From IMG/VR virus record IMGVR_UViG_3300040801_000600, positions 1-24,219 of that record: a DNA stretch of 24,219 nt. One strand, 5' to 3'. The stretch is from a virus. The translations under genes and the position numbers were made by a program. A model generated the notes under the pieces. It had not been told where the DNA came from and searched no databases. It saw nothing but the letters and a program-made list of their open reading frames with translations. Positions 9,936-24,219 of this stretch are shown one piece after another (position 1 is the stretch's first letter; every line of letters begins with the position of its first letter).

Positions 9936-9978
9936 AGTCAGATCAATTTATACATCATTATTTATAACCAATCTGACT
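9936..9978 (-). repeat. Inverted repeat enclosing the gp18 promoter boxes
   Basis: AGTCAGAT at 9936-9943 and ATCTGACT at 9971-9978 (plus strand) are perfect 8-base arms. The 27-base interior holds the TATAAATA box and a second near-box (TATAAATT), which can pair partly with each other. No long T-run follows, so it does not look like an intrinsic terminator. Confidence 0.5.
9959..9966 (-). promoter_or_regulatory. T4-type late promoter (TATAAATA) before gp18
   Basis: Exact TATAAATA on the minus strand about 43 bases ahead of the gp18 ATG. A second near-match (TATAAATT) follows about ten bases later. The position fits gp55/gp33-dependent late transcription of T4-like phages. Confidence 0.7.
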
Positions 9979-10007: not shown

Positions 10008-12236
10008 TCATCTGCGACCATTACGAAAATTTAGATATTCTTCATATCCACCAAATTCGTTAATTTTGCTCTGAAAATCTCTAACTTCACTATCTAATAA
10101 CCATCCATCTGGATCGTGTGCTTCAGCGTCAGCCGCTAAAAATGCATCCCAAGCTTCTTCCATTTCAGGATCTCCTTCAGCTTCTTGAAGAGGAGTTTCT
10201 TGAGGATTTGTTTTATTCATTCGATACCAGAGTTCAGGATCATTTTGTAACATATCTTTTTCTTGCCATTCATATTTTTCACCTTCAAAGAAATCCGAGT
10301 GTAAGAAATATGAGAACCATATACAAGACATGACACAATCATCATATAAATTTTTACCTTCTTTACCTTTAAATACACCCTCACGCACTTCTTCAAAATA
10401 TCCAATTTCATCAATCGTTTGGTCATCATTTAAGATAATATGTCCACCTTCAAGATCAGCTTTGAAGTGTTGACATGCTTTTGGTTTGGTTGAGCGAGTT
10501 GCTAGAACTCCATATTCTCCTCGTTGAACATCAAAGAATAGATTTTCATATTCATAGTCATTAAACATACTAGCACATACATCATCTCCATAACCACCAG
10601 GATTTACTTCGATAATAACATATGCATCATTCCAATATTTAGCACTATTATAGATATATTCTGCCATCTGAGTTGGAGGTAGGGTATTACAACGCCAAAT
10701 TGCTACTTGTTCATGAGCCATACCTGCCAATGCACCAGTTACATCGAATACATTAATAATAGAAAAGTCTGACCCTACTCCACCACCAACATCGACAGAA
10801 ATCGCATATTTATGTCCAGGTTTGGATTGTGCCCACATTTTAGTCCATTCGTCTGGCATCCAAAGTGGTTCTTTTTTATTTAAATGTTTAATGATATATT
10901 CTGCTTCAATGAGAGTAATAGATGATCCTTGGAATTGACAGTTATGAGTTTTTATACCGTTTGCATAAAAAGAATGTTCATCATTATCTACTTCTAATAC
11001 ATCATAAACGTATTCTTTTCCTTTATATTCGATAGAAACGATCTTCTCAGGACCATCAATAGTATCTATAATATCCCCCACTTGTAGGTCTTTCATTTGG
11101 ATAGTTTTATCACCACTGAAAATTTCATGGTCAAATGTTGTGGTAATGGTCTTATCACAGTTAGTTGTTAAACATATACCTGCTTTTTTCACATCAGATT
11201 TTTTTAAACCCTCGAACTCTACCCATCCATTTTCAGTTTCTATTTCATAGTCTTCAAATGCAGCAATAACAAAAGTTTCCATATATGTTTTAAATCTATC
11301 TGATTTTAAATATTCATCTTCATTCATGCTGTTTTTTGATGAATTTATTTTACCATGAACTATTGCCAGATTTGATGGTGATCCGATTTCTTCTGGCGAC
11401 GCCTTACGTTTAAATCCATTACTTATAGATTCCCTATGATCAATTGAAATATGTTCTGGGAATTTATATAAAGGAAATCCAGTATATTCGCAATATCCGC
11501 TCCATAATTCAAAAACCTCATTTAATGATTGTAATGTTTCTCTTTTAACATCCAGATAATATTTTTTTATTTCTGGCATTTTAGATCTTGGTTGCCACTT
11601 ACCAGCATCTTCCATATTTTTGCGGATCGCATCTTTTATCTCTTTCAAGCAACTGGTTGCAGGAACTCCATATACATTCATATTGGTATTTCTTCGTTTT
11701 ACATTCGCAGAAGTTTTCTTCTCATCAGTCCACGATTTCCTACGTTTCTCATTGATTTCTTCTTTATTCTCTTCTAATGCCTTGACTCTTAAATTAGTGG
11801 TTTCTTCTGTTAATAAATTGGTTTTAACGCCAAAATTCTTCAAATTGGTGTGGGCAACTTTATTTTTAGTATCAACTAACTGAGGAACGTGCTCTTTACC
11901 ATACTTCTTTAAATTGGTAGTTTTTCTTTTTGATAAAGCTTTTTCTTTATCGTATGAATTTACACTTCTTTTATGATTTACTATGTACTCAGGATCTTTA
12001 TGAGAACATTTAACTGAACAAGTTCTTGCATATCCTTTTTGGTGGAATTTTGTAGGTTTACCACAAACTACACATATACCTTCACCATCTTTCTTTTCAG
12101 TTAAATCATAATACTCTTTTTTACTAGTTATACCATGATCAGGTCCACAATGGTATCTGAGAAAATGTGAAGGTCTATACTTGGTCTGGGAATTACAGAT
12201 TTTACAAAACACAGGTAGTTCTTTACACCTTTTCAC
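10008..12236 (-). CDS. 17: Terminase large subunit gp17, C-terminal piece: HNH endonuclease + C-intein + nuclease domain
   Basis: A 742-residue precursor. Residues 8-82 hold two Zn-binding clusters (C11-x2-C14...H24-x4-H29; C55-x2-C58...C73-x3-C77). Residues 105-195 have repeated TNLKKYG-like motifs, and 245-310 an HNH-type site (D266-H267, N289, H294, N298). Residues about 325-432 are a C-intein: block-B-like TTTFDH (365-370), then D-L-Q-V-G-D and the ending SFYANGIKTHN before Cys433. From Cys433 the gp17 nuclease domain follows, with likely catalytic D482, E543 and D632/D633. The start is GTG at 12236 with GGAGG nine to ten bases upstream; a stop lies in frame at 12255-12257. It overlaps the N-terminal piece by 14 bases in another frame. 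Trans-splicing would release the endonuclease-intein and complete gp17. Confidence 0.9.
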   Translation of the reverse strand: MKRCKELPVFCKICNSQTKYRPSHFLRYHCGPDHGITSKKEYYDLTEKKDGEGICVVCGKPTKFHQKGYARTCSVKCSHKDPEYIVNHKRSVNSYDKEKALSKRKTTNLKKYGKEHVPQLVDTKNKVAHTNLKNFGVKTNLLTEETTNLRVKALEENKEEINEKRRKSWTDEKKTSANVKRRNTNMNVYGVPATSCLKEIKDAIRKNMEDAGKWQPRSKMPEIKKYYLDVKRETLQSLNEVFELWSGYCEYTGFPLYKFPEHISIDHRESISNGFKRKASPEEIGSPSNLAIVHGKINSSKNSMNEDEYLKSDRFKTYMETFVIAAFEDYEIETENGWVEFEGLKKSDVKKAGICLTTNCDKTITTTFDHEIFSGDKTIQMKDLQVGDIIDTIDGPEKIVSIEYKGKEYVYDVLEVDNDEHSFYANGIKTHNCQFQGSSITLIEAEYIIKHLNKKEPLWMPDEWTKMWAQSKPGHKYAISVDVGGGVGSDFSIINVFDVTGALAGMAHEQVAIWRCNTLPPTQMAEYIYNSAKYWNDAYVIIEVNPGGYGDDVCASMFNDYEYENLFFDVQRGEYGVLATRSTKPKACQHFKADLEGGHIILNDDQTIDEIGYFEEVREGVFKGKEGKNLYDDCVMSCIWFSYFLHSDFFEGEKYEWQEKDMLQNDPELWYRMNKTNPQETPLQEAEGDPEMEEAWDAFLAADAEAHDPDGWLLDSEVRDFQSKINEFGGYEEYLNFRNGRR
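10941..11264 (-). other. C-intein segment (about 108 residues)
   Basis: Residues about 325-432 of the C-terminal piece. The opening YEIETENGWVEFEGLKKS aligns in pattern with the start of the AceL-TerL C-intein (IKI-x3-NGF-x-x-F-x-GI-x-K). TTTFDH supplies the block-B T-x-x-H, and IKTHN-Cys the block-G ending. The N-terminal boundary is approximate. Confidence 0.85.
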
Positions 12237-13110
12237 TATATAAGTCCTCCAAAGTTACTGATCGTACTTCTCCAGTTACTTTATGTCTTATATTTATAAC
12301 AGTATCAGGCCAAAAACAGTTGAATTCCTGATTAAAACGAATATTCCCTAACATCTGACGCATTTCTTTTTCCCAAGATTCATCTCGACCTGGAACTTGT
12401 CTCCAATCAACTTTATATGGGACAAATGGGAAGTCGGCTGAATCATTAGATGCATCTTTCCAAAGATTGTAAAATAAGTTACCAGTACCATTTGGAGTAG
12501 AAACCACGATACATTTACCACCAGTAGAGATAACTGGCAAGTTTGATGCCCAGAACTCGTCTGCCAAGTTATTTGGAACGAATGCGAACTCGTCTAGGAA
12601 GATCAATGCAGCAGATTCACCACGAAGAGCATCTTTAGAAGTTGCACGAGCAAGAATCTTACACCCATTATCAAATTCTACAGTTCCTTTGTTATATTCG
12701 ATGACTCCAGGTTTAAGATATTCTGGTAATCGTTCATAAGCGAATTTAATTTCATCAAGAATTGCAACAGCAGTTGATGCTTTGTTAGCAAGAATTGCAA
12801 CAGTTTTATCTTTTTGGAAACATGCGAACCATAAAAGATAGATAGCTGAACATGTGGTTTTACCAACCTGTCTAGCTGCCATTAAAATATTTAATCGGTG
12901 ATCTTGGAAATTACTAAGAATACCTTCTTGATAATCTCTAAGAGAAATAAGCTGGGCACCAGTGACCTGGTGAACTACATAATAGAAGTTTTCAGCAAAG
13001 AATTTTACATCTTGAATGCACTGGGCATAGTTTGCCAACATAGCTGCATCAAACTGGATTTTCTTTCCTGGACGCTTAATACGACCGTCATCATCATATT
13101 TAATAGGCAT
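12223..13110 (-). CDS. 17: Terminase large subunit gp17, N-terminal piece: ATPase domain + N-intein
   Basis: A 295-residue protein from the ATG at 13110, preceded by TTGGAG with nine bases spacing; the TTG at 13125 is part of that Shine-Dalgarno and is not the likely start. Residues 1-264 are the packaging ATPase: Walker A AARQVGKTT (78-86), Walker B ALIFLDEF with D173-E174, and the coupling motif VVSTPNGTGN (202-211). Residues 265-295 are an N-intein starting with Cys265 and containing block-A-like DTVINI and a closing VTLEDLYSEK. The frame ends with TAA at 12225-12223, inside the Shine-Dalgarno/start zone of the next piece. After splicing, 264 N-extein plus 310 C-extein residues give 574, near the T4 length of 610. 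The motor packages DNA into the prohead through the portal. Confidence 0.93.
   Translation of the reverse strand: MPIKYDDDGRIKRPGKKIQFDAAMLANYAQCIQDVKFFAENFYYVVHQVTGAQLISLRDYQEGILSNFQDHRLNILMAARQVGKTTCSAIYLLWFACFQKDKTVAILANKASTAVAILDEIKFAYERLPEYLKPGVIEYNKGTVEFDNGCKILARATSKDALRGESAALIFLDEFAFVPNNLADEFWASNLPVISTGGKCIVVSTPNGTGNLFYNLWKDASNDSADFPFVPYKVDWRQVPGRDESWEKEMRQMLGNIRFNQEFNCFWPDTVINIRHKVTGEVRSVTLEDLYSEKV
12246..12250 (-). promoter_or_regulatory. Shine-Dalgarno GGAGG for the C-terminal gp17 piece
   Basis: GGAGG lies on the minus strand inside N-intein codons (TTG GAG GAC), nine to ten bases before the GTG at 12236. It decides the start of the second piece and argues that the split is genuine. 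Confidence 0.8.
12291..12298 (-). promoter_or_regulatory. Late-promoter-like box TATAAATA inside the N-intein
   Basis: Exact TATAAATA overlapping the Ile-Asn-Ile codons of the N-intein, about 55 bases ahead of the GTG of the C-terminal piece. A transcript starting about six bases after it would carry the GGAGG and GTG. By eye, the other exact minus-strand copies lie just ahead of gene starts. Confidence 0.5.
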
Positions 13111-13119
13111 GCTGTAAAT

Positions 13120-13147
13120 CTCCAAAAATATTTATACATTTTTGGAG
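13120..13147 (-). promoter_or_regulatory. Hairpin that overlaps the gp17 Shine-Dalgarno and encloses the late promoter
   Basis: Perfect 10-base arms CTCCAAAAAT and ATTTTTGGAG (13120-13129 and 13138-13147) with an 8-base loop. On the minus strand the downstream arm contains the gp17 GGAG, so an RNA reading through from upstream genes could hide it. An RNA starting from the TATAAATA inside the hairpin would lack the upstream arm. T4 genes e, soc and 49 use this logic. Confidence 0.6.
13129..13136 (-). promoter_or_regulatory. T4-type late promoter (TATAAATA) before gp17
   Basis: Exact consensus about 18 bases before the gp17 ATG, within the loop and arms of the 13120-13147 hairpin. The predicted start would fall at or next to the GGAG, giving a very short leader. 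Confidence 0.65.
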
Positions 13148-13150
13148 GAT

Positions 13151-14056
13151 TTATGGACGAAAAATTTTAGAGAAGTCCCCGTTTCTATATTCTGCTTTAA
13201 TAAAATGCCACTTCCATAAATCTCTGAGAGTAGGTTCTTCATATCTTCTACCCCCCAATGCATTTGGACTAGGATTGACATATATCTTAGGGACCAAAAA
13301 TCTATTCTCAAATTCTATCATAAAACTATTGATACCAATATCATTTTTAAAGTTTTTCTGTTTTTGTGGAGGATATAATTCAGTATCAATCTTTACTTCA
13401 ATTGGATTCAAGAAATTTTTTCCAGATCTAGCATCTTCCCATAACCATTGAAATAGACTTCCAAAATCTCCAGCAGAAGATGTCATTACTAACTGACTCC
13501 AGTACATATCTTTCAACAAGAAGCCATTTTGTATATGAGTCTGTAAATTCTTATGGTTGACATATTGAGTTTCATCAGACCATAAAAGATCAAAACGAAA
13601 TCCTCTAAACCCATCAAATGAACCAAATGAAATGCCATAGATATGAACATCATTATCAGCCTTTATGCATTTAGAGTTTGATGTAAGCAATCCTGGTTTG
13701 ATCCACTCTGGCAATTGTTGATATTTTTCTTGTATTTCTTTTATGAGTCTTATGCTTTGTGCATGGGAATCTGTAACAATACCTATAGACTTATACTGGT
13801 TAAAACAAAGATACCATAAAATCAAACCTTCCATGATAGTCGTTTTACCATGTTGTCTTGGTGATAGTACAATAGTGTCGTTTCCATTGATAACAGACTC
13901 AAGTATTTCTTTATGGTAACCTTTGACGCTATATTTTCCAACTCCAGTTACTGGAGAGATTATGTCCATATACTGTTCTAGAAAATATATAGGATCACGA
14001 ACACATTTGACAATCTCAGAATATTGTTCAGGAGTTCTTTCAGTCGTCGTGATCAT
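13151..14056 (-). CDS. Free-standing terminase ATPase-domain protein (gp17 paralogue lacking the nuclease)
   Basis: A 301-residue protein between gp16 and gp17. It aligns by eye along the whole gp17 ATPase domain: Walker A VLSPRQHGKTT (63-73) against ILMAARQVGKTT; LPEWIKPGLL against LPEYLKPGVI; Walker B DLLWSDE (156-162) against LIFLDE; and MTSSAGDFGSLFQWLWEDA (191-209) against VVSTPNGTGNLFYNLWKDA. It passes the position of the gp17 intein (IEFENRF against QEFNC, the Cys replaced) and ends about 48 residues later with no nuclease domain. Both Walker motifs are intact, so ATP hydrolysis is plausible; motif III has lost the STP. Its ATG overlaps the end of gp16 with a GGAGG/AGAGG region upstream. 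It may be a second packaging ATPase, a regulator, or a relic of duplication. Confidence 0.85.
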   Translation of the reverse strand: MITTTERTPEQYSEIVKCVRDPIYFLEQYMDIISPVTGVGKYSVKGYHKEILESVINGNDTIVLSPRQHGKTTIMEGLILWYLCFNQYKSIGIVTDSHAQSIRLIKEIQEKYQQLPEWIKPGLLTSNSKCIKADNDVHIYGISFGSFDGFRGFRFDLLWSDETQYVNHKNLQTHIQNGFLLKDMYWSQLVMTSSAGDFGSLFQWLWEDARSGKNFLNPIEVKIDTELYPPQKQKNFKNDIGINSFMIEFENRFLVPKIYVNPSPNALGGRRYEEPTLRDLWKWHFIKAEYRNGDFSKIFRP

Positions 14057-17861: not shown

Positions 17862-18932
17862 TTATGCTGTGCCAGATAACATATTGACAATCATAGATTT
17901 TAGTGACTTTGATAAATTTCCAAGATTCTCAGTTGCGTAAGCTATTGCTTCTGCCCAAAGTTCTTCAGGATTCGTAGCAGCATATTCACTAGGGGTTGAA
18001 CCTTTTTCGAACGCCAATGAACGAAGAGTTTGGAATTCATCTTTTTCTAATTTTGATGGAACTGACTGTAAACCTGTTTTAAAACTGAGTTTAGATAGAA
18101 CCTTTTTAAAACTTTCTTTATCTTTTAGAATATTTGGATTTCTTTTGAATGCTGAAGTAAATGTTTTCCCTAAATAAGATTTAACCGAAGTAGATGGTTT
18201 AATTGCTGTAACTTGCATTACAATTTCTGGGAGTACACGATCCAATTTTCTTCTTAATGGGGATGTATCAGACTGTGAAGCATGCCAAATTTCTTCTGCT
18301 TGTGTTGACGTTATAGAATCAGATTGATTCTCTTTGTGTCCATAATAACTTTTAAATGATGGGGAAACCACATTGTCTTTATACCACGAAACAAATTTTT
18401 CTTTTGTTTCTTTATCGAATTGTTTGTACCAAACACTATGAGCGAATTCATGAGTAACAGTATATTTAAATCTTTCTATATCCCCAAAAAATAATCCTTT
18501 ATTAACGAATATAGTTCCAGTTCTTGGATCTGCATATCCATAAATGTCTTTGTCTCCAACCTCTTTAATTAAAGCTTCTGCATTTTTTGGAAATTCAATA
18601 AGAACTAAACTTTGTTTTTGACTTCGAATCCCAAGCTTCCCAATATTATTAGATACTTCTTTGAGAATAGAATCTAATTTTTGTATTCTATTTTTTGTTA
18701 ATAATGGGTCTTTCAGAGGGCCACTGTCTTCTAAAGAATAGAATTTATTTTCGTGTTTTCTTTCTTTATCCAATACTCCAGAATATGGAATAAAAAATCC
18801 CATTTTTGGAAGTCGAGTCAATTGATTAGACTCAATCCATTTTTCTCCAGTCTTCGGGTTAGCCCCACGAAATTCCATCAGTTCGTCATATTGATGGTCT
18901 TTGTTGAAATAACTTTTGAAGTCTATATTCAT
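17862..18932 (-). CDS. Putative zinc metallopeptidase (HExxH) inserted between gp13 and gp14
   Basis: A 356-residue protein with HEFAH at 161-165 (two His zinc ligands, catalytic Glu162) at the end of a helix (RFKYTVTHEFAHSVWYKQF). A later NPEELWAEAIAY helix (321-332) can supply the third, Glu ligand (E324 or E328), the gluzincin pattern. Residues 125-150 form a strand-rich lead-in (YGYADPRTGTIFVNKGLFF), the expected edge strand before the active-site helix. N-terminal 1-100 is basic with no signal peptide or membrane segment, so a cytoplasmic or virion location is likely. Its ATG is three bases after the gp13 stop, making it part of the gp13 transcript. It may process neck or head proteins, act as an injected effector, or be an unrelated insertion. 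T4 has no counterpart between genes 13 and 14. Confidence 0.75.
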   Translation of the reverse strand: MNIDFKSYFNKDHQYDELMEFRGANPKTGEKWIESNQLTRLPKMGFFIPYSGVLDKERKHENKFYSLEDSGPLKDPLLTKNRIQKLDSILKEVSNNIGKLGIRSQKQSLVLIEFPKNAEALIKEVGDKDIYGYADPRTGTIFVNKGLFFGDIERFKYTVTHEFAHSVWYKQFDKETKEKFVSWYKDNVVSPSFKSYYGHKENQSDSITSTQAEEIWHASQSDTSPLRRKLDRVLPEIVMQVTAIKPSTSVKSYLGKTFTSAFKRNPNILKDKESFKKVLSKLSFKTGLQSVPSKLEKDEFQTLRSLAFEKGSTPSEYAATNPEELWAEAIAYATENLGNLSKSLKSMIVNMLSGTA

Positions 18933-18935
18933 TTA

Positions 18936-20192
18936 TTATCCCATATAGAAATCTGCAGGTAGAGAATAACGACCATCATGAATCTGATCTTCTAATTTTT
19001 CTCTTAATGCATCGCCACGACTTAGATATCCATCAGAATTAAATGAGCCGCCTCCTGGGAATGTAAGACCTGTATATTTCATTCCATTCATTCCGCATTG
19101 TATCATACAAAGTGCAAATGCATATTCTCTCACCCACTGATGCTCATACATGGCTTCATCTGGTACGCGACGAGTTACAGCGAAAGCGATAACACCTTTT
19201 GATTTTGGTGGAGGGGTAATTCTAACTTTATGTTCAAGTTCTAATAGCTGAACATTCGTTTTAATCGAATATAATGTTCTAAACATTTCAAGATATTGCA
19301 TACCCATTTCCCAACCAACAACATCAACGAATCCGCCATGAGAACCATGCCAATATCCATATCTATTATCTGTCCATGCTGTTGGGCTTTGCATTCCCCA
19401 GTTACCACCACCATGAAGAAGTAAGTGTAATGGTGAGAATAACGCTTCACCACCAGACCCATATTGACCAGTTCCAAAATATCCAACACCTAAATGAGAA
19501 TGGACAGCAATAACGTCACTTGGTACGTCATAAACGCTCTTGAACACAAATCCTTGTTTAGTGGGTTTGACTGTTGTATCGCCTTCAACCCAGAATGGAC
19601 CTTCAGCTTCAGGGTCACCCTTTTCAGTTTCAGTAAAACAGTGAGGATCTTGAATTCCATCACCACACCATCCCGGACCACGACAATCTGCTTCTTCTGG
19701 GCAGCATTCTCCATTTGCATCGACTGAAGGTAAAGGATTTGTACATTCGTCTAATGGAGGTTTAATGTGAGCAGTATTAAATGCTCCACAGTCTTGAGGT
19801 GGACATGCTGATGTGCCAGATGTTCCAGTAGTCCCTGAAGTACCTGTAGTGATACAATCTAATTCTAAATCTTGAAGTTGATCAAGAGTTAAATTATCAT
19901 TTTGCGTTGTCGTAAGTGGTTGAAGATATGGTTTTCTTGGTTTTCTCCATCTACCAGCAGTTGGTCCAGGTTGACATGGACTACCAGTTCCATCGTAGTA
20001 AACAGGTTCTGGACAAATAAGCATGACGCTATCTTCATTACCAATTCCTGAGGCATGCTCACCAAAATAATCAGTAGCTTGATCAATTAAATCATCAATC
20101 TGAGTAGAATCGATTAGCTGATCCACTATAGGAGCACCTAGTCTTCTTCTAATCCAATTCGCCAATTCTCTTTTTTTACGATAAGGTCGCAT
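18936..20192 (-). CDS. 13: Neck protein gp13 with Cys-rich insertion
   Basis: A 418-residue protein. Residues 1-45 read RPYRKKRELANWIRRRLGAPIV-x-QLID-x-TQIDDLIDQATDYFGEHASG, the opening of T4 gp13-type head-completion proteins (basic helix, then a [QE]-[IL]-x-D-x-[IL]-D-x-A motif leading to E-H). The C-terminal half resumes with GFVFKSVYDVPSDVIAV, W-E-M-G-M-Q-YLEM, and a final ALREKLEDQIHDG helix. T4 gp13 is 309 aa; the extra length is mainly a stretch at about 55-205 with eleven Cys (60, 73, 113, 130, 135, 150, 163, 164, 170, 176, 185) and a G-T-S-rich linker (117-128). The start has TTGGAG and an exact late-promoter box upstream. gp13 with gp14 closes the DNA-filled head for tail attachment. 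Confidence 0.8.
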   Translation of the reverse strand: MRPYRKKRELANWIRRRLGAPIVDQLIDSTQIDDLIDQATDYFGEHASGIGNEDSVMLICPEPVYYDGTGSPCQPGPTAGRWRKPRKPYLQPLTTTQNDNLTLDQLQDLELDCITTGTSGTTGTSGTSACPPQDCGAFNTAHIKPPLDECTNPLPSVDANGECCPEEADCRGPGWCGDGIQDPHCFTETEKGDPEAEGPFWVEGDTTVKPTKQGFVFKSVYDVPSDVIAVHSHLGVGYFGTGQYGSGGEALFSPLHLLLHGGGNWGMQSPTAWTDNRYGYWHGSHGGFVDVVGWEMGMQYLEMFRTLYSIKTNVQLLELEHKVRITPPPKSKGVIAFAVTRRVPDEAMYEHQWVREYAFALCMIQCGMNGMKYTGLTFPGGGSFNSDGYLSRGDALREKLEDQIHDGRYSLPADFYMG

Positions 20193-20220: not shown

Positions 20221-20228
20221 TATTTATA
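20221..20228 (-). promoter_or_regulatory. T4-type late promoter (TATAAATA) before gp13
   Basis: Exact TATAAATA about 29 bases ahead of the gp13 ATG in the 70-base divergent region between gp13 and the plus-strand glycosyltransferase; TTGGAG follows at 20206-20201. Confidence 0.7.
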
Positions 20229-20262: not shown

Positions 20263-20979
20263 ATGACTCAACTATCATTTATAACAGTTTGCATGGGTAG
20301 ATTAGAACATCTACAACAAAGCCTTCCAAGAATATACGATAAACCAAATACTGAAACTATTGTAGTTGATTGGAGTTGTCCAGAACATTGTGGGGATTGG
20401 GTAGAATCTTGTTACCCAAAAACGAAATTAATAAGAGTTCATAACGAACCTGAGTTTCATAGAACTATTCCTAAAAACATTGGTGCTTCATATGCTACTG
20501 GTAAGTTTTTATGCTTTTTGGATGCTGATATGTTAGTAGAAGACTCTCTATTTGATAAAATAATCACTTTGGATGAGAATAAATTCTATACAAGATTGCC
20601 AACATATGCATCATATAAAACAGGTCAGAAGTGGATTAATCGTGATGGCATAACAGATTTTGATGACCCATCAACCACTGGATTCATCATAATACCCAAA
20701 ACTCTATTTTCTGGATTTGATATTGTATTTGATAAGTATGGATCAGAAGATATAGATTTACGTTTGCAGTTATTAACAACTGGAGTAAAAGAAGAAATTA
20801 TGGGGAAAGTCATTAATCCTATACGACATAATGATGATTCTAGAACAAAATATGAAAATATAACAATGTCAGTTTCCAGAAAGATATCAAGAGAGAAGTT
20901 ATTCAAAAAATGGGGAAGAGATGTAATCAATAAGTTTTTAATTGAGTCTCAAGATCCTTTAGTTCATCTAAGTTCGTAA
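20263..20979 (+). CDS. GT2-like glycosyltransferase (GT-A fold), only plus-strand gene
   Basis: A 238-residue protein starting MTQLSFITVCMGRLEHLQQSL, the usual opening of family-2 glycosyltransferases (strand, then a helix binding the nucleotide). TETIVVDWSCP (30-40) is the second strand, NIGASYATGKFLCFLDADM (72-90) ends in the DxD metal/nucleotide-sugar motif D87-A-D89, and YGSEDIDLRLQL (159-170) supplies the catalytic-base-type ED motif. His189 in a following I-R-H may complete metal binding. It probably transfers a sugar from a nucleotide donor to an unknown acceptor, either virion protein or host surface. AGGA precedes the ATG. The last 53 bases overlap the end of the convergent GT-sulfotransferase gene. 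It starts in the same opening (strand-turn, then C-M-[GD]-R-L) as that neighbour, suggesting kinship. Confidence 0.87.
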   Translation: MTQLSFITVCMGRLEHLQQSLPRIYDKPNTETIVVDWSCPEHCGDWVESCYPKTKLIRVHNEPEFHRTIPKNIGASYATGKFLCFLDADMLVEDSLFDKIITLDENKFYTRLPTYASYKTGQKWINRDGITDFDDPSTTGFIIIPKTLFSGFDIVFDKYGSEDIDLRLQLLTTGVKEEIMGKVINPIRHNDDSRTKYENITMSVSRKISREKLFKKWGRDVINKFLIESQDPLVHLSS

Positions 20980-22375
20980 TATTAACTTTTTTGGATAATT
21001 TAACAGTTCTAGGAGTAAAATTATAATCAGGTAAATCCAATAAAGAATAGATTTCATTAACAATTTTTCGTTGACCATCTTCAGTTTTTATTTGGGAGTA
21101 ATCCAAAACTAAATCAGAAAATTCTTTGTTTATACCTTCCATATTTTTTGTATCTTCTAATGATCGGTTATACATGATTTTAAATATTTCAGGATCAACT
21201 GGCTCATTGAATTCACTACTTTTAAATGATCGATATAATTCCCTTTTGCGGGCCACACACATTGAGACTGCTTTATCAAATGTATTTTGTCGATTTAGGG
21301 TAATTATCTTCCAATTATTATCTTTAAGATATTGGCATAGATCTTCTATCGAAGATACATCATGGACCCATTCCCACTGATTCATCATAATTTTAAATCC
21401 ATAATGCATTCGATAATCAACTGTCTGAAATTTTGATAACGCTTCTAACTTTTCAAGTTGACCTACATGTTGAGAGGCAAGAAGGCCAATCTTGGGATTA
21501 ACAATATTAAATAATTCATTATGACAGAAAATGTTTGGGTGTTGGGATAACACATCAATTAGAAAATGAGATCCAGATCTAAATGATGCTATTATACAAA
21601 ACTTCTGACCATCAATTGTTGGATATGAATCGTTGTCAATTTTTATCTTACCCCAGTCTCTACCAACATTAGAAATAATTTTTCCAGATTGAATATTTTC
21701 TTGACTAATTTTAGAATTTTTATCATTACATTCAAAGAAGTTAGGTTCTTTTGTGTTCATCATTTTATCTTCAGTAGGGTTCTGGATAGCTCTCATAAAT
21801 TTTGGATTAGTAATATTTTTATATTTCGCACCATTTTCTATGGCTCTCAGAATAATATCAACATCCTGATATCCCATCCCTTCAAGTTCTTCATCGTATC
21901 CACCAATAGAATTGAAGAAGGGTCGCTTCATAAAAATTCTACCAAAATAACCATTTCCCCAATTAGTTTTGTGTGGATCAAAAACTTCTCGCTCTTTACC
22001 CAAATGACCAATAACTACATCATCAACATCTATCATACTCACAACTTCTTCAATAAATCCTTTGACAATATAATTATCAGCATCTAGATTGCAAACAATA
22101 TCTCCAGTAGCAAATTTGTGTACACAGTTCTTAGCATGAGGGGAACTATAATAAACAGGTTCTAATGTTCTGTAATATTTTAAAAATCCCTTTTTAATAT
22201 AATCTTGCAAACGAGAATCTGATTTTACGAATTCATGCAATCCATCATGGGAGTTATAATTCAATAAAACTAATTCAGCGTCTCCATATTCTTCTATCTT
22301 TCTGAGATTGTAAAAAATGGTTTCTCTTAGTTGAAACAATCTATCCATACAAGTTGTGCAAAATGAAACTTTCAT
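20927..22375 (-). CDS. Glycosyltransferase-sulfotransferase fusion protein
   Basis: A 482-residue two-domain protein. Residues 1-200 are a GT-A glycosyltransferase: KVSFCTTCMDRLFQL start, AKNCVHKFATGDIVCNLDADN with DxD at 98-100, and GGYDEELEGMGYQDVDIILRA (158-178) with acceptor-site acidic residues. After a linker (200-255), residues 256-482 resemble PAPS-dependent sulfotransferases: FCIIASFRSGSHFLIDVL (259-276) is the 5'-phosphosulfate loop, and IITLNRQNTFDKAVSMCVARK (357-377) carries the Arg362 and Ser371 of the 3'-phosphate motif. The enzyme could add a sugar and then sulfate it, or sulfate a sugar added by a neighbour. Its ATG follows the upstream stop within two bases; only a weak AAGG precedes it, so coupling is likely. 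Confidence 0.88.
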   Translation of the reverse strand: MKVSFCTTCMDRLFQLRETIFYNLRKIEEYGDAELVLLNYNSHDGLHEFVKSDSRLQDYIKKGFLKYYRTLEPVYYSSPHAKNCVHKFATGDIVCNLDADNYIVKGFIEEVVSMIDVDDVVIGHLGKEREVFDPHKTNWGNGYFGRIFMKRPFFNSIGGYDEELEGMGYQDVDIILRAIENGAKYKNITNPKFMRAIQNPTEDKMMNTKEPNFFECNDKNSKISQENIQSGKIISNVGRDWGKIKIDNDSYPTIDGQKFCIIASFRSGSHFLIDVLSQHPNIFCHNELFNIVNPKIGLLASQHVGQLEKLEALSKFQTVDYRMHYGFKIMMNQWEWVHDVSSIEDLCQYLKDNNWKIITLNRQNTFDKAVSMCVARKRELYRSFKSSEFNEPVDPEIFKIMYNRSLEDTKNMEGINKEFSDLVLDYSQIKTEDGQRKIVNEIYSLLDLPDYNFTPRTVKLSKKVNITNLDELKDLETQLKTY

Positions 22376-22376
22376 A

Positions 22377-23033
22377 TCAATAATATCCCTTTAAATCGTA
22401 TATATGTTCACCTATATGACTCAAAACTAATCCAGTATGACAATATAACTCAATCCCAATATCTCTTGCTCGCTGACAAAAACTAAAATCTTCTGGTAGC
22501 CAACGCTTTACACCATTGAAATCTGTTACCATTGTATTATATAAGTTATATGATTTTTCATTAGAATCGTTTATATACTCTAAATCTTGATATTTTAAAA
22601 TCATCATTTTAGCTACTTTTTTAGGGACTAACATAAATCCAGTAGCAATATATTTCATTGGAATTATAGAACCATCTAGTTTAAATTCGACAGTTTCATC
22701 TAAAGGGACTCCATTTATTTGGGGTCGGCCATCTGGTCGATATCCTTTCATTGAATAAAATCCGCCCATAATGGATTCAGGGTCCATATCGTTTAAAACT
22801 TTATCAAGAATATATGGGGGATTTACGATGATATCAGAATCAATGGTCAATAGAATGTCTGCATCAGACTTCATAAACATATGAAATGAATCGTTTCTGG
22901 CTTTTGTTATATGACTACATTGAGAAAGATAATAAGTTTCTACGGAATGATTACTAGTCATTTGGCTTTTAGAAACAATATATCTATAATCAACTTTACC
23001 ATCAATACATGGGGTTGATACGAATATTTTCAT
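22377..23033 (-). CDS. GT-A glycosyltransferase-like protein
   Basis: A 218-residue protein. It starts MKIFVSTPCIDGKVDYRY, and SHITKARNDSFHMFMKSDADILLTIDSDI (40-68) leads to a DSD (65-67) metal-binding motif. TGFMLVPKKV and RWLPEDFSFCQRARDIG (177-193) correspond to the acceptor/base region with E-D, and L-S-H-I-G-E-H (204-210) may give a metal-binding His. The ARN-D pattern before the DxD occurs in several phage and bacterial glycosyltransferases. No membrane segments are seen, so it is likely cytoplasmic. It sits between the fibre gene and the GT-sulfotransferase, with gaps of seven and one bases, implying a single transcript. Acceptor unknown; the fibre or another virion protein is a reasonable guess. 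Confidence 0.85.
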   Translation of the reverse strand: MKIFVSTPCIDGKVDYRYIVSKSQMTSNHSVETYYLSQCSHITKARNDSFHMFMKSDADILLTIDSDIIVNPPYILDKVLNDMDPESIMGGFYSMKGYRPDGRPQINGVPLDETVEFKLDGSIIPMKYIATGFMLVPKKVAKMMILKYQDLEYINDSNEKSYNLYNTMVTDFNGVKRWLPEDFSFCQRARDIGIELYCHTGLVLSHIGEHIYDLKGYY

Positions 23034-23040
23034 GTATCAA

Positions 23041-24219
23041 TTATATCTGTTCAGTGACTTTTTCCCAAGTATTTGTGAAATCAGAATAAACTAAAGTTAT
23101 GCTTCCATAATCAGTGTTGATTGTATATGAAGTTTGTGCTACTCCAAATTCAGAACCAAGATTATCACTGGTAAAGTTAATAGTAATATTTCCATTTGAA
23201 GCGTTACCGTCTACGTCTTTAATAGTTATCATTTTTCCATCTTTGTTATTCAGATTTTGCCATGCGAATGGTTCATTGATATTGATACCCAAACCGTTTC
23301 CAGTTGAGCACATAAATATCTCCCAACCTGCATATTCAACAGCTTCAAATGTGGTGTTGGACCCACCATTAACTTGGACAGTTTGGGTTCTTCTTCCAAA
23401 TCCAGGTCCCGAGCTTGGATTTACAATAGCTTCTTCAGAAACTGCTATGGTTGAAGATGGACTGCTAAAGTTTATATCACTAGTAATGTCGTCAATAGTA
23501 CTTCCTGGACCACTAAATGTTATTCCAGTTCCAACGACTACATTAGAAGGAACAAACAAATCGTTTCCATCATATCTAAAGCTTGAATCTCCTCCAAATG
23601 ATCCATTATCATTAAATTGTACTGATTGATTAACGCCACCAGGAGAAGCAGTTCCAGATCCACCACCACCACCTAAATCAAGTATGGCTTGTAGAGACAT
23701 TCTAAATATGTCACCTGTAGAAGAATCTTGATAAACAAAATATGCATCTGTAGAAGTTGGAGTGTTATTAATAATAAGATTATCTGTTATGCTAAACACA
23801 ATCGCATAATCACGACAATCAGTTACCCCTCCAACTGAAGTGACTGCTATTGGAGAGTCTCCTCCACCACCCACAGAAATTCCAGTACAACTATTCAGAA
23901 CAAAGTCCCCAAACATAAGATCGCCAGTTCCACTGTCAATCCATAAAGTGTTATCTGGGACTCCTCCAGGATTTGAAGTTACTTGAGTAAGTTCCAAACC
24001 TGTTGGGTCAATAAGACCATCAACTGTTAATTTACCAGAAATATAAGCATCTCCAGACGCACTAATATCACCAGTCGCAAGAAGATTTGGAAGAATTAAG
24101 TTTCCAGTCATAGTATCACCAGAACGCTCTACATAATCTCCACTAACTGATGATACAGCAGAATCAACGTAGGATTTGATAGACTGCTGGGTTGCTAAGG
24201 CTGTATTTGAATTGCTAGA
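23041..24219 (-). CDS. Tail-fibre-like structural protein (N-terminus beyond right edge)
   Basis: The frame is open to the window edge: 36 codons before the first ATG (24111) read TALATQQSIKSYVDSA...DYVERSGDTMTGNL, the standard repeat-like element of phage fibres, so the gene is partial rather than starting at 24111. The 392 visible residues are Gly, Ser, Thr and Asn rich with strand-turn units (ISASGDAYISGKLTVDG), a Gly-rich loop, and a C-terminal domain MITIKDVDGNASNGNITI...YGSITLVYSDFTNTWEKV, common at the end of phage fibre and head-fibre proteins. No intramolecular chaperone motif is evident. It may be a host-recognition or decoration fibre. Three sugar-transfer genes follow it, suggesting it as a possible substrate. 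Confidence 0.82.
   Translation of the reverse strand, partial: SSNSNTALATQQSIKSYVDSAVSSVSGDYVERSGDTMTGNLILPNLLATGDISASGDAYISGKLTVDGLIDPTGLELTQVTSNPGGVPDNTLWIDSGTGDLMFGDFVLNSCTGISVGGGGDSPIAVTSVGGVTDCRDYAIVFSITDNLIINNTPTSTDAYFVYQDSSTGDIFRMSLQAILDLGGGGGSGTASPGGVNQSVQFNDNGSFGGDSSFRYDGNDLFVPSNVVVGTGITFSGPGSTIDDITSDINFSSPSSTIAVSEEAIVNPSSGPGFGRRTQTVQVNGGSNTTFEAVEYAGWEIFMCSTGNGLGININEPFAWQNLNNKDGKMITIKDVDGNASNGNITINFTSDNLGSEFGVAQTSYTINTDYGSITLVYSDFTNTWEKVTEQI

Follow-up and report, generated by a model that had tools for sequence, protein, structure and literature searches.

A T4-like phage contig carries a gene (positions 20,927–22,375 on the minus strand, stop codon included) whose 482-amino-acid product is very probably a genuine fusion of a glycosyltransferase (GT) with a sulfotransferase, as judged from the open reading frame (ORF) listing and from profile matches. 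The contig is single and makes up the entire virus record; its 24,219 bases are referred to here as the window. An earlier note on this DNA had given exactly these coordinates, to which the ORF listing adds the minus strand, and had described one polypeptide with a DxD-containing GT-A domain and a PAPS-type sulfotransferase domain, a description borne out by the profiles, the conserved residues and the predicted fold. What is new here is the fusion, together with its link to a fibre operon; phage sulfotransferases and virion glycosylation are already known. We propose, giving the idea an even chance, that the protein is a bifunctional cytoplasmic enzyme that would add a sugar and sulfate the glycan, with the virion as its target.

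Two domains in one polypeptide

The GT-A domain spans amino acids 1–211 (21,743–22,375, minus strand). It scored above the curated cut-offs for PF10111 (E = 4.6e-9, 36.6 bits, cut-off 27.3) and PF00535 (E = 2.8e-7, 31 bits, cut-off 23.3) and slightly below that for PF02709 (22.3 bits, cut-off 23). The GT family was gathered from an alignment with one relative and comprised 32 viral and 43 bacterial loci; against the profile of its own family, built from 80 relatives with the window excluded, the domain scored 8e-67. The DxD motif, D98-A-D100 (22,076–22,084, minus strand), was kept in 79 of the 80 relatives, and the same proportion retained D171. Beside this conserved aspartate sits a glutamine, Gln170, at a position occupied by Glu or Asp in 79/80 relatives, a departure that could mean an altered or weak GT domain. 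The profile scores, the DxD motif and the acidic residues agree with membership of the GT2/GT7C-type GT-A enzymes, from which Q170 deviates, and by sequence the family is common to phages and bacteria. Some of the Bacteroidota relatives adjoin bacteriocin-type ABC exporters and others lie in polysaccharide-like clusters, according to a by-eye reading of translations; acceptors in this family may therefore be peptides or polysaccharides. The sole phage record that matched the GT domain (MT837976, 34%) was rejected because it resembles a Bacteroides chromosomal radical-SAM cluster and not a phage.

The sulfotransferase domain occupies amino acids 257–476 (20,948–21,607, minus strand), as delimited by window-free profiles, an AlphaFold2 model and fold matches in the PDB. 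The Pfam family Sulfotransfer_3 (PF13469) gave 17.2 bits for the whole protein and 19.2 bits for the domain alone, short of its cut-off of 27. As the gathering score was missed, the domain was filed under the PAPS-dependent superfamily rather than under PF13469 itself, and since Pfam alone was sub-threshold, the domain was put to three separate tests. A profile of bacterial and viral sequences from which the window had been excluded matched it at E = 3e-29, and a profile of only seven bacterial sequences, likewise window-free, matched amino acids 257–476 at E = 3.5e-22; the bacterial-only profile had zero matches at E ≤ 10 among 2000 shuffled copies. In tblastn searches, rhizobial NodH-type sulfotransferases aligned over nearly their full length (22–25% identity, E about 1e-3), and a homologue was found in Antarctobacter (E = 2e-5). 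With the sulfotransferase domain as query, tblastn against 50,697 phage records returned chance-level matches only, two viral stand-alone sulfotransferase relatives used as queries gave no match, and single-protein scans of IMG/VR did not find a close relative.

The residues expected at the cofactor site were present. The 5'-phosphosulfate loop R266-S-G-S269 (21,569–21,580, minus strand) has its arginine in 33 and its glycine in all 34 of the 34 viral relatives, and the 3'-phosphate site, R362 to S371 (21,263–21,292, minus strand), has its arginine in 33/34 and its serine in 29/34. Each of R266, G268, H279, P280, E287, R362 and S371 was kept in 29–34 of these relatives, and R266, G268, R362 and S371 were invariant in the NodH-type alignment. 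The earlier note had tied its case to Arg362, Ser371 and the loop, all of which aligned and were conserved in relatives. Judged by its sequence, the C-terminal domain belongs to the PAPS-dependent sulfotransferase superfamily, with intact cofactor-site residues.

Structure prediction, which had been suggested as a check, was run on the C-terminal domain and pointed to the same family. An AlphaFold2 model from the single sequence was of no use (pLDDT 32); refolding together with 34 viral relatives gave a model with a pLDDT of 87.4 and a pTM of 0.86. When this model was compared with the PDB, the top 12 matches were sulfotransferases. The best solved folds were Stf0 (PDB: 1tex) and the tyrosylprotein sulfotransferases, with heparan sulfotransferases close next, and the P-loop kinases, whose core fold is the same, ranked lower. 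TM-scores of the sulfotransferase matches were moderate (0.43–0.61), as expected at about 15% identity to solved structures. The C-terminal domain is predicted to adopt a sulfotransferase fold.

Gene neighbourhood and late promoters

The fusion gene lies in a block of late structural genes from a T4-like phage. Along the minus strand, the order is fibre-like gene, GT3, fusion gene, neck genes, sheath stabiliser, small terminase (likely), large terminase, sheath and tube; from the neck genes to the tube this is the order found in Stenotrophomonas phage DLP6 and Synechococcus phage S-SRM01, whose sheaths are ~40% identical to that of the window. GT3 is a probable glycosyltransferase (22,377–23,033, minus strand) that stops 1 nt short of the fusion gene and matched phrog_1574 (2e-18), the glycosyltransferase family phrog_34859 (5e-5) and, below threshold, PF13506. 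In Synechococcus phage ACG-2014f, a GT3 homologue comes after tail-collar genes and precedes genes for a surface protein, a GT2 and a sugar epimerase. The fibre-like gene (23,041–24,219, minus strand) is truncated by the edge of the window and lies 7 nt ahead of GT3. It matched the tail fibre family phrog_972 weakly (0.003) and carries fibre-like repeats, on which the fibre call partly rests; tblastn found no relative of it. A third glycosyltransferase gene, GTplus (20,263–20,979, plus strand), is convergent with the fusion gene and overlaps its 3' end by 53 nt, and its product matched PF10111 (1.6e-7) and its own profile (8e-24). Of the fibre gene and two further glycosyltransferases that had been reported nearby, GTplus is thus clear, GT3 is likely only and the fibre assignment is weak.

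Exact minus-strand sites for the T4 late-promoter sequence, TATAAATA, were counted across the window. All six (positions 9959, 12,291, 13,129, 16,633, 17,850 and 20,221) were situated 4–55 nt upstream of a gene start, a placement with p about 6e-9 under a simple binomial in which the gene starts were the analysis's own ORF choices. The site at 20,221–20,228 (minus strand) precedes the neck gene Ad2 (18,936–20,192). The window scan found no TATAAATA upstream of the fusion gene or GT3, and the promoter of the fibre-like gene falls outside the window. Because GT3 and the fusion gene are without the motif, their co-transcription with the fibre-like gene was deduced from the 7-nt and 1-nt gaps. Late expression, as claimed previously, is supported for the region, where six of six sites are well placed, and not by way of a motif belonging to the fusion gene itself.

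Several other features of the block were recorded. At an intein, the large terminase is divided into two minus-strand genes: the first (12,223–13,125) stops about 30 residues into the intein N-part, and the second (10,008–12,236), which has a TATAAATA site 55 nt ahead of it, starts with an HNH-like region, followed by the intein C-part (TIGR01443, above cut-off) and the terminase C-domain. This arrangement presumably resembles the atypically split TerL inteins from metagenomes. A second terminase ATPase-like gene (13,151–14,056, minus strand; PF03237, 8.5e-8) separates the likely small terminase from the split large one. Among the neck genes, a 356-amino-acid protein (17,862–18,932, minus strand) with a HEFAH (HExxH) motif is possibly a metallopeptidase; it had no match in Pfam or PHROG.

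Proposed function and competing explanations

In the proposed mechanism, the GT domain would transfer a sugar from a nucleotide sugar, and the sulfotransferase domain would move sulfate from host-made PAPS to the added sugar or to a neighbouring one, with the flanking glycosyltransferases perhaps contributing to the assembly of that glycan. The ORFs of the 24-kb window showed no PAPS-making gene, which makes dependence on host PAPS plausible. The acceptor would most likely be the fibre of the phage itself or some other protein of the virion, which would gain a sulfated, negatively charged glycan; this acceptor is suggested by the position of the fusion gene directly behind the fibre-like gene (and GT3) in the late structural cluster. 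We infer that both domains are active, that they serve one shared glycan and that this glycan is located on the virion. The fibre or virion is the favoured target, and the main rival reading has the enzyme act on a glycan of the host surface.

Under that rival, the enzyme would remodel host LPS or capsule with a sulfated sugar and so block superinfection or the re-adsorption of progeny. We regard this as rather unlikely, with a good deal in its favour. NodH-type sulfotransferases have exported glycans as their substrates, and the GT and sulfotransferase families of the fusion both occur in bacterial polysaccharide clusters (L079 and L008), so a surface-glycan role fits as well. Viral sulfotransferases have sugar-nucleotide genes next to them or elsewhere on their contig (RmlA-like in L035, RmlD-like in L036), and S-SRM01 has an entire island of glycosyltransferase and NDP-sugar genes. 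Against it, the fusion gene is tightly linked to the fibre-like gene within a late block, which would be late for superinfection control, and the GT3 homologue of ACG-2014f is likewise fibre-linked. It is improbable that a single domain is active and the other is a binding or targeting module, for instance an active sulfotransferase joined to a GT domain that only holds the acceptor; the glutamine at position 170, in place of the Glu or Asp of 79/80 relatives, would suit such a role, but the DxD motif and D171 are intact, as are all the sulfotransferase site residues.

Two further readings were judged unlikely. Modification of phage DNA or nucleotides rather than of a surface glycan has been suggested in the literature for viral glycosyltransferase and sulfotransferase genes (PMC10829341), but it is very improbable here: the GT domain is of a GT2/GT7C-like family that works on glycans, and the neighbours are fibre, neck and terminase genes, not genes of nucleotide metabolism. 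Less credible still is an artefact, by which the fusion would be an assembly chimera or would have arisen from a stop codon lost between two genes. The window is a metagenome fragment, and in one contig (L014) both functions are encoded by separate genes, a stand-alone sulfotransferase overlapping a gene with a GT domain of the fusion's family. Yet base composition per codon position was alike across both halves of the fusion gene and ran unbroken through the linker, which argues against a chimera or a lost stop, and a fusion in the same order is present in another contig, L068 (IMGVR_UViG_3300028883_000037). This 457-amino-acid protein has the same GT family at its N terminus and a sulfotransferase at its C terminus, with both domains exceeding the Pfam cut-offs, and a common clade for the two fusions was not rejected in a domain tree (AU p 0.64).

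If the fusion protein sulfated a glycan of the virion, this would to our knowledge be a type of surface chemistry new to phages. We know of no phage for which sugar sulfation has been shown on its own particle or on the host surface, and of no sulfation among the phage systems of virion-glycosylating GTs. As a tentative generalisation, held at somewhat less than an even chance, some tailed phages may display sulfated tail-fibre glycans made by their own bifunctional glycosyltransferase-sulfotransferase, encoded in the fibre operon, tuning charge and receptor binding.

Comparison with known systems and viral relatives

Phage genomes are known to encode sulfotransferases, whose function has been called unclear (PMC10580990; further mentions in PMC8290583, PMC10829341 and PMC13079714). 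Here, the fusion to a GT and the gene row with the fibre-like gene tie such an enzyme to glycan modification and name a candidate target, so that its role can be tested by virion mass spectrometry and enzyme assay. According to PMC10580990 and a fold search, Synechococcus phages S-SRM01 and S-SCSM1 and OM43-type phages have sulfotransferases of the same superfamily that are stand-alone, with no GT fusion reported, and no paper on a glycosyltransferase-sulfotransferase fusion was found in the open-licence PMC literature searched. Phage GTs glycosylate capsids and tail tubes in mycobacteriophages, according to Freeman 2023 as cited in PMC10877033, and modification of virion proteins in that manner is the mode suggested here.

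The phage domain shares with NodH a nearly full-length alignment and identical PAPS-site residues. NodH, however, is a stand-alone enzyme that sulfates Nod factor, whereas the phage domain is fused to a GT; the window's ORFs showed no nod genes, and the relation, as far as the alignment indicates, is one of distant homology only. A solved structure named NodH is available (PDB: 9vki). Stf0 and the tyrosylprotein sulfotransferases, the best fold matches, differ from the phage domain in their acceptors. A fold search also found a sulfotransferase-like stretch in a viral protein named as a glycosyltransferase, the 1092-amino-acid GT25 protein of Hokovirus HKV1, but this is a giant virus of eukaryotes and its GT family differs from that of the phage fusion.

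Motif searches of IMG/VR recovered many stand-alone sulfotransferases. In L060, one lies a single gene away from a GT of the fusion's family, and in L035 and L036 the sulfotransferase adjoins a T4-like terminase related to that of the window. Scans of parts of the S-SRM01 genome did not turn up the sulfotransferase that the literature names for this phage. The glycan island of this cyanophage (L151:1–7029) combines a NodZ-like fucosyltransferase with several GTs, one of which matches the fusion's GT family at 1.6e-9, and NDP-sugar genes. One viral contig carries four sulfotransferase genes or pieces in tandem (L013:1–2502), and six others (L018, L021, L118, L129, L136 and L138) have two or three copies each. 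In L038 (3–1190), a viral sulfotransferase is joined to a Methyltransf_24 domain.
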